Shown here piece by piece: positions 45,533 through 60,645 of a stretch of 64,000 bases of DNA. Each line of letters begins with the position of its first letter. Position 1 is the first letter of the stretch. The DNA comes from Flavobacterium sp. KACC 22761 (GTDB lineage Bacteria; Bacteroidota; Bacteroidia; Flavobacteriales; Flavobacteriaceae), in assembly GCF_034058155.1 (NCBI RefSeq), contig NZ_CP139148.1, forward strand, positions 682,001 through 746,000, given 5' to 3'. The notes under the pieces were generated by a model, which worked only from the letters and a program-made list of their open reading frames with translations, was not told where the DNA came from and made no database searches. Position numbers and translations under genes: made by a program.

Positions 45533-45610
45533 CGGGGTGTAGCGTAGCCCGGTTATCGTGTCCCGCTCTAAGGCGGGAAGACCACAGTAACGAACAATGA
45601 GCAAATGCTA
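45533..45610 (+). pseudogene. tRNA-Pro 5' fragment with a replaced anticodon arm
   Basis: The first 26 nt (45533-45558) are identical to the 5' acceptor strand and D arm of the tRNA-Pro gene 78 bp downstream. The anticodon arm is replaced by TCCCGCTCTAAGGCGGGA (45561-45578), a near-palindromic hairpin, then AGACCACAG, a degraded copy of the variable-loop region AGGCCGCAG. The T arm and 3' acceptor strand are missing, so it cannot be a functional tRNA. Confidence 0.8.
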
Positions 45611-45685
45611 CGGGGTGTAGCGTAGCCCGGTTATCGCGCCTGCTTTGGGAGCAGGAGGCCGCAGGTTCGAATCCTGCCACCCCGA
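45611..45685 (+). tRNA. tRNA-Pro (anticodon TGG)
   Basis: Complete cloverleaf of 75 nt: acceptor CGGGGTG/CACCCCG with discriminator A, D arm, anticodon stem CCTGC/GCAGG with loop TTTGGGA (TGG anticodon, positions 34-36), T arm GCAGG-TTCGAAT-CCTGC. CCA is not encoded. A terminator follows directly. It is preceded by a 5' copy and followed by a GIY-YIG gene ending in a 3' copy. Confidence 0.97.
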
Positions 45686-45690
45686 CAAAA
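45656..45690 (+). repeat. 35-bp direct repeat, copy 1 (tRNA 3' part)
   Basis: The 3' part of tRNA-Pro from the variable loop through the acceptor end plus CAAAA. It is identical over 35 bp with 46027-46061, so the two copies bracket the GIY-YIG nuclease gene with a 371-bp period. Confidence 0.9.
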
Positions 45691-45716
45691 GCCGAACAGA
45701 AATGTTCGGCTTTTTT
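45687..45716 (+). terminator. tRNA-Pro terminator
   Basis: GCCGAAC (45691-45697) and GTTCGGC (45704-45710) form a stem with a 6-nt loop and six Ts, immediately after the tRNA. Confidence 0.92.
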
Positions 45717-45724
45717 CATTTCTT

Positions 45725-45732
45725 TAAATTTG
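45725..45732 (+). promoter_or_regulatory. -7 box of the GIY-YIG gene
   Basis: TAAATTTG, a perfect match to TAnnTTTG, 7 nt before the start codon at 45740. The mRNA would be nearly leaderless. Confidence 0.5.
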
Positions 45733-45739
45733 CACGTTT

Positions 45740-45991
45740 ATGTTTTTAGTTTACATTCTTTACAGCACTACAAAAGAAAAATTTTACATCGGTCAAACAA
45801 ATAATATTGAAGATAGACTTAGACGACACAATAGTGGACAATCTTTATCTACAAAAAATGGTGCACCATGGAAAGTTATTTATACAATTCAACTAAATTC
45901 AAGATCTGAAGCAGTAGCTTTAGAAACTAAAATAAAAAAACGAGGTGCAAAAAGATATCTTCAAGACATAGATTTTGAGTTTCAATTGTAG
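45740..45991 (+). CDS. GIY-YIG nuclease-domain protein (83 aa, UPF0213-like)
   Basis: A single GIY-YIG domain: MFLVYILYSTTKEKFYIGQTNNIEDRLRRHNSGQ carries YIL (for GIY), YIG, and the catalytic Arg in RLRRHNSG; the metal-binding Glu is in EAVALETKIKK. This is the compact domain seen in YhbQ/UPF0213 proteins and in homing-type endonucleases, with the active-site residues apparently intact. The gene lies directly after tRNA-Pro and its stop codon TAG (45989-45991) is inside a copy of the tRNA D-arm sequence, so the coding region is embedded in tRNA-derived DNA. A tRNA-targeting mobile nuclease is a reasonable hypothesis; activity is not shown. Confidence 0.88.
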   Translation: MFLVYILYSTTKEKFYIGQTNNIEDRLRRHNSGQSLSTKNGAPWKVIYTIQLNSRSEAVALETKIKKRGAKRYLQDIDFEFQL

Positions 45992-46056
45992 ATAGCACGG
46001 TTATTGCGTCCCGCCTTAAGGCGGGAAGGCCGCAGGTTCGAATCCTGCCACCCCGA
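45988..46056 (+). pseudogene. tRNA-Pro 3' fragment with a replaced anticodon arm
   Basis: From GTAG (overlapping the GIY-YIG stop codon), the D-arm-like TAGCACGGTTATTGCG is followed by the perfect 18-nt palindrome TCCCGCCTTAAGGCGGGA (46009-46026) in place of the anticodon arm, then an intact variable loop, T arm and 3' acceptor strand identical to tRNA-Pro. The 5' acceptor strand is absent, so no cloverleaf can close. Confidence 0.85.
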
Positions 46057-46061
46057 CAAAA
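46027..46061 (+). repeat. 35-bp direct repeat, copy 2
   Basis: Identical to 45656-45690. Marks the right boundary of a 371-bp unit that contains the GIY-YIG gene. Confidence 0.9.
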
Positions 46062-46093
46062 AAGTCTTTTCAATTTTGGAAAGACTTTTTTTT
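46059..46093 (+). terminator. terminator after the tRNA 3' fragment
   Basis: AAAAAGTCTTT / AAAGACTTTTT stem with a T-run. The tRNA fragment therefore keeps a terminator of its own with a different stem sequence from that of the intact tRNA. Confidence 0.75.
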
Positions 46094-46168: not shown

Positions 46169-46280
46169 TTCGCCACAAATTCACGAATTTTCTTTTTAAA
46201 TACTTTATCTAATATTATTCGAATTAATTCGAATAAATAATCGCGAAGATTTGAAAAATAATTCGTGAATTCGTGGCGAA
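46169..46280. repeat. GCCACGAATT-family inverted repeat, copy 2
   Basis: Arms of 21 nt at 46169-46189 (TTCGCCACAAATTCACGAAT...) and 46260-46280 with one mismatch. Lies between the tRNA unit and the convergent beta-helix gene. Confidence 0.8.
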
Positions 46281-46294
46281 AAAAAATGTTCTTA

Positions 46295-48460
46295 TTATTT
46301 TTCCATACTTATATAAGAAGGACAAGACTCCTTATTAGGCAAAATAAACTCTTCATCAAAAGGCTGAGCGCCTTCACCATTATTATACAATGCCACACGT
46401 TTTGCGCCAGTTGCAGTGCTTCCGCCAGTTCCGTTAACAACGTTTTGGATATTTCCTGGACCCGCAAAACGAGTAATACACATTTTCTCCAATTTCACAT
46501 TTGAGCTATTCGGAATTTCGAAACCATTTTTTTTGTTTACATTTCCATCAGTTCCAGTAAAAACAGCATAAGAACCCATCCCAATACTTTGATGTACTTT
46601 TACTGTATTTGCAACTTTGAATGCCGCATAACCGTCAACTTTTCCTCCTTGACTACTCCAAGTTGCTTGATTTGGCGCATCGTATGGAGGTTCATTTTGA
46701 AAGAAATACGTTCTGCCACGCTCTCCCAACCATAACACTTCATATTCTTGAAAGTGCTCTACAAACAAACCATAAAGCGTCACATCATCACCCGTAACTA
46801 TTAGTCCGTTTTTGCATCGGTCCCTTACCCAGCGAAGGTCACCGCCTTTTTGTGAACCATGATCAGCACGCCACAACCAAAAGTGATCTCCCACAACATT
46901 GTCGCTATTAATTTGCATTGCAGCCTGAATCTGAATATTTTTTGACTGAACGCCACCTACCCTACAAGTAATGTCCGTAAGGAGAATAGGATCTATTGCA
47001 TGATCAGCATTTGCACCTTCTGCTCCAATTCTAACCTGATAAGTTGTACTATTAAATGAATCCATTAAAAGTCCCGCGATAATAATTCCGTCCTTATCAT
47101 CTGCATAAATGCAACCCCAAGTATTTTTTTCAGTTGGCTCCAGCGTTACCGAAGCAATACCAGCGCCTAAAAGTATGGCATCTTTCCTGTTCACTTGAAT
47201 AGGAGCATTTAATGAATAATGTCCAGGCGTAAAAAATATATTCTTGCCCGCTTTTAAAGCATTATTGATTTCGACATCAGTATCACCTTCTTTAGCAACG
47301 TACCATTCCGCGATCAAATCTTGGATTTTTCCTTTACCCATATCTGTTGCCGACCACGAAACTCCTACTCTATCTTTTTGCCAAGCAGGAATAAATACTT
47401 TGTATTCTCCATCTTTATCAATAAACAAAAAAGGTTTTTCTCTAATTATTGGCGTCGTCGCAACTGGTGAGTTTATCTCATCTGCCTGTGGCGGATTCAC
47501 GCAACCTTGCCAAACCATATTATAAGATCCTCCCATAGCGCCAGAACCCGAAGGAAAAACACTATTTCTAGTGTACCATTGTTGCTGTCCTTTCCAATTT
47601 GGTCGATCCGTTGTGTAATGAGTATCGGCAATAAAACCTCCACTTCCCCAAAAATTTGTATTTCCAATATCTGAAATATATTTCGATGTACTTTCAATCA
47701 ATAATCGTCGTGCACTAGTAGACTGAGAAACGGTCCAAGAAAAATCACGCATTACTTCTACATTTTCTACTGAACGCCAAAAAGTACAAGTTGCATTTGC
47801 TCCACCTGAAAGATGAGGTCTTGTAAATATTGAACCCAATTTAACATCTGAAGGCACTCTTCCTAAACCTCCAATATGAGAATAAAATCCCAATTCGATT
47901 GAATTGGCTTCCGCCGAAGATGCAGAGCCTGATCCGCCAACATCATACGTTTCGCCGTTAACATTTGCTTTAAAATAATAAGCCTGACGTTTTGTTGTCC
48001 ATTCACCATTTGGCCCACCTAAACCAATTTTACTAAAATGTGAATTAATTTCATTTTTTGCAGTTTCAGCTTTTTCATATTTTCTATCATAGAAATACAT
48101 ATTATCACCGAAAATCTGGTTTTCAAGCGAAATCACTACAGTTATATCATCACGAGTAACTTTGTAGTAGTTCTCGTATTTATTTGCATTCGGCTTATTA
48201 TCAGTAAAGGTCAATTTAGAAGTCGTACCAACTGCAACAAAATCAGATGCCAAATGACTTCCTCCTCTTGTTATTGTATAATTTCCAGACGAACCAAATG
48301 CTGGCCATGACAATGTGATGCTGTGTTTTTTCTTGTTGTAAACAATCTTGCCTTCTATCTTGTTTTCTGTTTTTTCACCAGACAGACAAGGTCTCGCGAA
48401 GCTGCATAAAACCCATGTAAATGCAAATACGAAACATAAAGAGATTACCTTTTTAATCAT
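46295..48460 (-). CDS. large exported beta-helix protein ('adenylyl cyclase'-annotated family)
   Basis: 721 residues with an N-terminal signal (MIKKVISLCFVFAFTWVLCS). Residues 35-100 look like an FN3-type sandwich (KIVYNKKKHSITLSWPAFGSSGNYTITRGG). The second half (about 380-700) is a right-handed beta-helix of the GH55/pectate-lyase-3 type: EINNALKAGKNIFFTPGHYSLNAPIQVNRKDAILLGAGI, DKDGIIIAGLLMDS, HFWLWRADHGSQKGGDLRWVRDRCKNGLIVTGDDVTLYGLFVEHFQEYEVLWLGERGRTYFFQNEPPYD. I recall relatives in actinobacteria mis-annotated as adenylyl cyclase. A secreted glycan-active or binding role is likely. No operon partner; convergent with the GIY-YIG unit. Confidence 0.8.
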   Translation of the reverse strand: MIKKVISLCFVFAFTWVLCSFARPCLSGEKTENKIEGKIVYNKKKHSITLSWPAFGSSGNYTITRGGSHLASDFVAVGTTSKLTFTDNKPNANKYENYYKVTRDDITVVISLENQIFGDNMYFYDRKYEKAETAKNEINSHFSKIGLGGPNGEWTTKRQAYYFKANVNGETYDVGGSGSASSAEANSIELGFYSHIGGLGRVPSDVKLGSIFTRPHLSGGANATCTFWRSVENVEVMRDFSWTVSQSTSARRLLIESTSKYISDIGNTNFWGSGGFIADTHYTTDRPNWKGQQQWYTRNSVFPSGSGAMGGSYNMVWQGCVNPPQADEINSPVATTPIIREKPFLFIDKDGEYKVFIPAWQKDRVGVSWSATDMGKGKIQDLIAEWYVAKEGDTDVEINNALKAGKNIFFTPGHYSLNAPIQVNRKDAILLGAGIASVTLEPTEKNTWGCIYADDKDGIIIAGLLMDSFNSTTYQVRIGAEGANADHAIDPILLTDITCRVGGVQSKNIQIQAAMQINSDNVVGDHFWLWRADHGSQKGGDLRWVRDRCKNGLIVTGDDVTLYGLFVEHFQEYEVLWLGERGRTYFFQNEPPYDAPNQATWSSQGGKVDGYAAFKVANTVKVHQSIGMGSYAVFTGTDGNVNKKNGFEIPNSSNVKLEKMCITRFAGPGNIQNVVNGTGGSTATGAKRVALYNNGEGAQPFDEEFILPNKESCPSYISMEK

Positions 48461-60629: not shown

Positions 60630-60645
60630 TCCCGAAACATCGGGA
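60630..60645. repeat. short TCCCG...CGGGA hairpin
   Basis: TCCCGAAACATCGGGA, extended by a second GGGA just after (CGGGA). Between ribH and the TPR gene. Same class as 32067-32084. Confidence 0.5.

Follow-up and report, generated by a model that had tools for sequence, protein, structure and literature searches.

Transfer RNA genes are favoured landing sites for mobile DNA. Group I introns with homing endonucleases occupy tRNA genes and leave the tRNA functional, and REP palindromes with their RAYT transposases, which are HuH tyrosine enzymes, combine a small nuclease-family gene flanked by hairpins with dispersed palindrome copies elsewhere. The nearest functional precedent for the locus described here is SegB of phages T4 and T6, a free-standing GIY-YIG homing endonuclease of the tRNA region that cuts within tRNA genes and drives, via recombination, the tandem amplification of tRNA together with a C-terminally truncated segB; the published account reports the motif RAWTSGAAC and no favoured isotype (PMC13096335). 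The Tn7-like CAST I-D is reported to home to tRNA genes and to insert around 30–33 nt downstream of the tRNA, and Tsy elements carry an accessory GIY-YIG nuclease and insert in comM (PMC10293859); as described there, both are multi-gene transposons, unlike the minimal cassette reported here.

The locus lies in a 64-kb window (the whole stretch of DNA that was analysed) of a Flavobacterium genome, where a small GIY-YIG gene stands between an intact tRNA-Pro and a partial copy of that tRNA, the typical layout of a cassette family that is real and widespread. Unlike a tRNA gene occupied by a group I intron, it has no intron, the tRNA is intact in the DNA and the element itself would carry the replacement half. 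RAYTs differ from the window family in being HuH rather than GIY-YIG enzymes and are not known to be tied to tRNA isotypes. As in SegB, a GIY-YIG enzyme stands beside tRNA genes, and the complement of the SegB motif, GTTCSAWTY, fits the T arm in the window, GTTCGAATC. SegB, however, is phage-borne, whereas the window family is chromosomal and single-domain, has clades that follow isotype and a hairpin, and is proposed to regenerate half a tRNA; we found neither half-tRNA fragments nor hairpins in the consulted part of the SegB account (PMC13096335). The features of the locus are the following:

45533–45610, + strand: upstream ψ-tRNA-Pro unit of 78 bp, with tRNA positions 1–26, a hairpin and a decayed 3′ half (repeat search)
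45561–45578, + strand: hairpin in place of the anticodon arm of the upstream ψ-tRNA, TCCCGC-TCTAAG-GCGGGA (repeat search and hairpin count)
45611–45686, + strand: intact tRNA-Pro(TGG) (ARAGORN; RF00005 of Rfam at 69.2 bits on the identical sequence in locus L001)
45656–45690, + strand: 35-bp direct repeat, copy 1, tRNA positions 46–76 plus AAAA (repeat search)
45684–45717, + strand: terminator-like inverted repeat 3′ of the intact tRNA, part of the unit (repeat search)
45740–45991, + strand: GIY-YIG nuclease gene, 83 aa (ORF; PF01541, E 7e-17)
45987–46057, + strand: downstream ψ-tRNA-Pro, with a degenerate 5′ half (inner), a hairpin and an exact 3′ half (outer) (repeats and locus comparison)
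46009–46026, + strand: perfect 18-nt palindrome in place of the anticodon arm of the downstream ψ-tRNA (repeat search and hairpin count)
46027–46061, + strand: 35-bp direct repeat, copy 2 (repeat search)
46058–46091, + strand: terminator-like inverted repeat after the second 35-bp repeat (repeat search)

The tRNA-Pro(TGG) is the sole tRNA that ARAGORN called in the window. Positions 45533–45558 are repeated at 45611–45636 (26 nt, spacing 78), and 45656–45690 at 46027–46061 (35 nt, perfect), the spacing of 371 defining a 371-bp unit. Chance could hardly produce a perfect 35-bp repeat, and recurrence across many genomes ruled out both chance and an assembly artefact. The first-pass annotation had already described the 78-bp upstream unit repeating the first 26 nt of the tRNA, the 83-residue GIY-YIG gene and the 35-bp direct repeat bracketing it, and the repeat search, the ORF and the Pfam match agree with it. 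Its tRNA-Pro is intact as claimed, but ends at 45686 according to ARAGORN and not at 45685; both fragments do contain a hairpin, but the 18-nt palindrome ascribed to both is perfect only downstream, the upstream one having a 6-bp stem and a 6-nt loop; and the nuclease stop codon, said to lie inside the D-arm sequence, is a TAG that aligns by eye with tRNA positions 8–10 of the downstream fragment, at the acceptor/D-arm junction. The outer half of this fragment equals tRNA 46–76 letter for letter. The inverted repeat at 46058–46091 is probably the original terminator of the locus, since a similar sequence lies directly 3′ of tRNA-Pro in L112 and L110 (by eye). Just 3′ of the locus there is also a 27-nt inverted repeat (46169–46195 and 46254–46280, 89% complementary, 58 nt apart), and downstream of it, on the − strand, a 721-aa ORF (46295–48460) that has no Pfam match at E 0.001 and is kept in L025 (89% identity) and L026 (87%), in each over the part covered.

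The window protein matched the GIY-YIG family of Pfam at 61.9 bits, against a cut-off of 22.6, and at E 0.001 its Pfam matches were GIY-YIG and T5orf172 only, with no HuH tyrosine transposase domain among them. Residues Y5, Y16, R26, H30, E62 and K66 are invariant in 22 aligned proteins; we take Y5, Y16, R26 and E62 to be the conserved active-site tyrosines, arginine and glutamate of GIY-YIG enzymes. A group I intron homing endonuclease was ruled out, as the tRNA is intact in the DNA and the intron-endonuclease model of NCBIfam (TIGR01453) gave 25.0 bits, far below its cut-off of 56.05, over residues 4–40 only. By sequence, the best solved relatives are the single-domain UPF0213 proteins of PDB entries 1zg2 (E 4.6e-17, profile positions 2–78 of 83) and 1ywl (E 8.6e-15, 2–79 of 83), both named hypothetical; the solved relative SLX1 is named a structure-specific endonuclease. 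The cassette nucleases consist of a single domain of about 80–95 aa, and their two relatives on viral contigs are weak (50% over 36 residues and 33% over 61). Purifying selection is indicated by median dN/dS values of 0.11–0.33 in eight overlapping sets of 2 to 520 usable pairs, few in some of them (Asp 2, Phe 4). Fifteen nuclease rows listed for same-genus genomes contain internal stop codons, so decay of nuclease copies is common.

To place the window in context, we searched overlapping sets of genomes from the genus, class and phylum. Nuclease matches occurred in 171 of 299 same-genus genomes at E 1e-6, in 197 of 295 genomes (110 of 155 genera) class-wide at E 1e-8 and in 191 of 296 genomes (100 of 139 genera) phylum-wide at E 1e-10; the closest named relative is F. 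quisquiliarum (88%), of the phylum Bacteroidota. Eighty named loci span Flavobacterium, Winogradskyella, Arenibacter, Aquimarina, Christiangramia, Chitinophaga, Cyclobacteriaceae and Saprospiraceae, among others. All 29 best same-genus loci, the window's own excluded, have tRNA-Pro sequence beside the nuclease, although contig ends leave only one side visible in some (e.g., L029, L036, L050). They come in two mirror-image forms: layout D has intact tRNA, nuclease and tRNA 46–76, and layout U has tRNA 1–26/28, nuclease and intact tRNA. Forty weaker matches, hand-picked down the same-genus list, sit at Ala, Val, Phe, Arg and Asp tRNAs, with an intact tRNA near 39 of them. The window genome itself, a single contig of 5.04 Mb, has five family members at E 1e-8, and in a second tRNA-linked case an intact tRNA-Met(CAT) is followed by a nuclease 39% identical to the window's and by a tRNA-Met 3′ fragment, which holds a different palindrome, TCCGCCGCGGCGGA.

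Altogether, at 205 of 212 loci the nuclease lies next to a tRNA fragment, within 400 nt of an intact tRNA, or both; the loci are a collection of overlapping sets (the 80 named loci repeat some genus loci) obtained as best matches to mostly tRNA-linked queries. At 186 of them an intact tRNA on the same strand lies either no more than 400 nt away (173 loci) or at a greater distance with a fragment on the other side of the gene; the tally is 160 loci with a tRNA and a fragment across the gene, 26 with a tRNA within 400 nt only and 26 with neither. Nineteen of the latter have part of a tRNA no more than 400 nt away on at least one side, and among the remaining seven, L090 has a Phe fragment and L175 lies between dispersed repeats (both by eye). 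As a control, the tRNA library matched 1 of 359 single 400-nt stretches taken at least 700 nt from any nuclease, on one side where the loci were tested on two; the library contained one merged entry, which makes some isotype names unreliable and leaves the presence or absence of a match unaffected. At the 12 loci searched with Rfam, out of the 26 without intact tRNA, only tRNA reached a gathering score. By isotype, the fragments are Pro 84, Ala 21, Val 18, Phe 10, Arg 9, Asp 8, Asn 4, Met 3 and His 2, with one doubtful Glu; we count nine isotypes and not eleven because the evidence for Ser and for the one Glu is proximity or a doubtful tRNA call. More than one nuclease copy is present at 61 of the 212 loci, ten array loci included.

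The nuclease clade tends to follow the tRNA isotype, judging from a tree of 208 of 217 proteins (rows with stops or shorter than 60 aa left out) labelled by script with the nearest tRNA. On this tree the 180 labels change 24 times, against a shuffled mean of 82.1, and on a deduplicated tree of 122 proteins less than 75% identical there are 25 changes, against 56.5; in both cases none of 200 shuffles was as low. The His and Ser labels, with 2–3 rows, do not cluster. Given the small number of columns behind the tree and its many unresolved forks, we claim clustering only, not branching order, and since two isotypes can occur in one genome (Pro and Met in that of the window), host phylogeny alone is insufficient to explain it. 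The break position also varies with isotype: in Flavobacterium it lies, by eye, in the anticodon arm for Pro, Ala, Val and Met, in the T loop for Phe and in the D loop for Arg. Twenty of 33 D-type Pro(TGG) fragments start at 44–46, and in the other 13 the inner half can still be recognised, so that these extend further in the 5′ direction. U-type fragments end at 26–28 in 14 of 40 cases and at 49–52 in 22, which implies at least two U-type break points.

A hairpin in the partial tRNA copy was read by eye in Pro, Ala, Val, Phe, Arg and Met examples, at a site that differs by isotype. Among the Pro-type ones we counted 32 distinct hairpins (21 D, 12 U, one shared), with stems of the form T-N-N-C-G-N and freely varying loops; three of 88 fragments were off pattern and left out (one of 65 D, two of 23 U), and of these L250 and L257 have a TCCCGC..GCGGGA hairpin by eye and L203 starts at a contig end. 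At the three pattern-free stem positions 93 of 96 cells are paired (shuffled mean 77.5, maximum 86; 0 of 5000 shuffles as good), and with each stem counted once 24 of 27 (8 of 5000 as good), stem pair 3 showing C-G, A-T and T-A. For U-type stems alone, each counted once, the signal is weak (13 of 15 paired; 232 of 5000 as good), and arm-to-arm correction of palindromes could mimic covariation. A search for the TCCCGC hairpin joined to tRNA-Pro sequence gave 39 sites, spread over 21 of 299 genomes, and none in the control. In the ψ-tRNA T arms of L110, L064, L086, L061 and L059 a palindrome replaces, by eye, the five bases after GGTTC, which are GAATC or GATTC (in L059, GATCC) and overlap with the complement of the SegB motif.

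The cassettes also form tandem arrays. One genome from another family has 10.2 units of 457 bp (99%) after a tRNA-Met beside era, a gene that also adjoins the tRNA-Met case of the window genome and locus L152, from yet another family; in genome G022, 5.1 units of 350 bp (99%) follow a tRNA-Pro. In these arrays, which belong to a set of ten loci mostly chosen for being arrays, each unit comprises the nuclease with an incomplete tRNA, so that nuclease copies accumulate and whole tRNAs do not. Tandem units with no nuclease detected, made of tRNA 60–76, a terminator and a further stretch, follow tRNA-Pro in L119 and L132, the latter with three of about 172 bp.

The trxB neighbourhood was compared at 30 loci, the window's own and those of 29 of 38 relatives with a match. 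The nuclease is present at four; 14 lack it and have a tRNA-Pro in the same orientation (a GGG one in one case, at a distance of 826 nt in one), seven have an inverted tRNA-Pro, upstream of trxB (L111, L114, L118, L120, L125, L126, L128), and five have no tRNA. The GIY unit is present in L109 and absent from L110 and L112. In L112, whose TrxB is 97% identical, both the 78-bp and the 371-bp units are missing and the tRNA leads directly into a terminator resembling that after the window's second 35-bp repeat, while L110 (TrxB 98%) has only the upstream unit, of 77 bp; an older decayed fragment lies further on in both. The unit-free state of L112 may be ancestral, or it could result from exact loss by recombination between the 35-bp repeats. 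In five trxB-locus genomes of the window's subclade the dS of the GIY gene (0.28–1.03) is similar to that of TrxB (0.50–0.72), which fits vertical inheritance there. Across the ten pairs of these five loci, out of eight (L205, L206 and L221 are outside the table), the outer arm differs at 0–4 of 31 positions and the hand-aligned inner half at 3–8 of 24, so the arm is much better conserved than neutral drift would leave it, whether through selection or because the intact tRNA is copied into it again and again. L206, by contrast, has an intact ORF but no outer arm, and in L221 the arm carries a second hairpin and the nuclease match is split in two.

These comparisons bear on the broader proposals of the first-pass annotation. 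The many isotypes, the tandem arrays and the unit-free loci lend strong support to its idea of a minimal mobile unit that is associated with a tRNA and leaves it intact. The empty tRNA-Pro site that it recommended looking for among relatives exists in L112, and the same pattern at other tRNA genes is seen in the fragments of nine isotypes beside relatives' nucleases; the arrangement is thus neither fixed in all relatives nor are the homologues unlinked to tRNA. The view of the fragments as mere leftovers of earlier events does not fit the outer fragment being better conserved than the inner half in five same-locus genomes or the covariation of the Pro hairpin stems, but the outer arm is lost or broken at two further loci.

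We regard the window as probably holding one member of a phylum-wide, selfish, homing-type cassette family in tRNA genes, a reading in which cleavage and copying are inferred. The nuclease would cut its own tRNA gene at one spot (the anticodon arm for Pro), and repair would copy in the cassette with its replacement half-tRNA, so that, as proposed, the tRNA stays whole. The displaced outer half, usually near-identical, would serve as a homology arm for spread and also for unequal exchange, leading to arrays, and exact loss, and the hairpin in the partial copy would remove the cut site there or mark the end of the element. The main puzzle is the persistence of an identical, unoccupied tRNA-Pro gene in the window genome: nine genomes have 2–3 full-length tRNA-Pro matches each (95–100% identity), and the two of the window genome are identical over 76 nt, one of them without a cassette, so the nuclease, if made, is not simply destroying or filling every copy.

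Palindromes and nucleases of the family also occur away from tRNAs. TCCCGN6CGGGA, the generic class to which the genome-wide palindrome count for tRNA-linked cassettes is confined, has 36 sites in the window genome (one at window 60630–60645) and none in the reversed control; TCCCGAAGCYTCGGGA, identical to the Phe-type hairpin, is frequent among them. Three nucleases of the window genome have no tRNA beside them:

804957–805169 of the window genome: L003 nuclease, with CTGAGCGNAGTCGAAG copies on both sides
2857151–2857363 of the window genome: L004 nuclease, with TCGACGNAGGAGNAATCT copies on both sides
335119–335325 of the window genome: L005 nuclease, with a TCGACGNAGGAGNAATCT variant on one side only, by eye

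CTGAGCGNAGTCGAAG has 107 copies in the genome and TCGACGNAGGAGNAATCT 38 (control 0 for each), many of them in inverted pairs. The arrangement around L003 and L004 resembles the REP/RAYT organisation and keeps alive the idea that the GIY-YIG protein is transposase-like and acts on hairpins in RAYT/REP fashion, the hairpin being the recognised end and the tRNA merely a preferred landing site. The covarying stems with variable loops would suit such an enzyme, as would the 36 dispersed palindromes, the dispersed repeats on either side of the L003 and L004 nucleases and the palindromes that replace five bases in some ψ-tRNA T arms. We nevertheless consider it unlikely: among the 21 genomes with a tRNA-Pro-joined hairpin, by a pattern that covers the TCCCGC stem only and is blind to hairpins away from tRNA, 19 hold a Pro-type nuclease (best match below 2e-18 in the same-genus list, hand-sorted), against 15 of 278 others, the two without being G056 and G222, and an enzyme recognising hairpins alone would have no need for clades that track tRNA isotype.

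Isotype clustering could also speak for a protein that acts on RNA, an isotype-specific tRNA nuclease of toxin or defence type for which the hairpin-bearing tRNA-like transcript is a decoy or antidote; the conserved hairpin with variable loops and the T arm kept in downstream-type fragments fit this as well. Yet upstream-type fragments keep the opposite half, downstream-type ones, having no 5′ acceptor strand, are not expected to fold into a complete tRNA, the units occur in tandem and are absent from near relatives, and the solved relatives by sequence are UPF0213, hypothetical, and the structure-specific endonuclease SLX1, all of which makes the proposal improbable in our judgement. Purifying selection and the SegB precedent could also speak for a service to the host, with the nuclease kept for raising tRNA copy number or supplying decoy tRNA against tRNA-cutting enzymes, like SegB for T6; we give this very little credence, as the repeat unit has only part of the tRNA and arrays add nuclease copies without adding whole tRNAs. 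Just as implausible is that tandem duplication of tRNA regions passively trapped a nuclease gene with no active role: direct repeats suffice for tandem expansion and exact loss, but hitchhiking sits badly with one protein family associated with fragments of nine isotypes, isotype-related breakpoints, covarying hairpins and purifying selection.

If the selfish homing-type reading is right, it would account for the tRNA-like fragments at tRNA loci and for the small GIY-YIG genes in tandem there, would provide a set of naturally occurring nucleases that differ in tRNA-gene specificity on a scaffold of about 80–95 aa, and makes testable how a selfish nuclease targets an essential multi-copy gene without killing its host; it points to an overlooked family of selfish elements living in tRNA genes without breaking them. 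In the open-access literature (subscription papers and preprints being outside its scope) we found no equally small element inside tRNA with nuclease clades following isotype, nor a description of half-tRNA fragments or hairpins with such nucleases, and the consulted part of the 2006 superfamily survey mentions no half-tRNA fragments, hairpins or isotype-following clades (PMC1564403). Only tentatively, we suggest that this may be a new category of element, a cassette of about 350 bp with a single-domain GIY-YIG enzyme that recognises a single tRNA gene at a single site, insertion by a half-tRNA swap and a displaced half capped by a functional hairpin, and with sister enzymes that have moved to dispersed palindromic repeats; in that event the tRNA-linked cassettes and the REP-like repeats of Bacteroidota would both be maintained by a single family of nucleases.

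Two minor observations concern individual loci. In the Asp-type loci L057 and L068 the nuclease is surrounded by a direct repeat that is not tRNA sequence, GGTTTAGTAGTTAGACCAATGAAAAGC, and that a hairpin interrupts in the copies 3′ of the gene; the repeat matched nothing in an Rfam search at E 0.5 and is perhaps an undescribed small RNA. In L045 the nuclease ORF continues into the tRNA fragment, giving the tail AGSNPATPT, and database proteins with similar tails may be the product of tRNA read-through.
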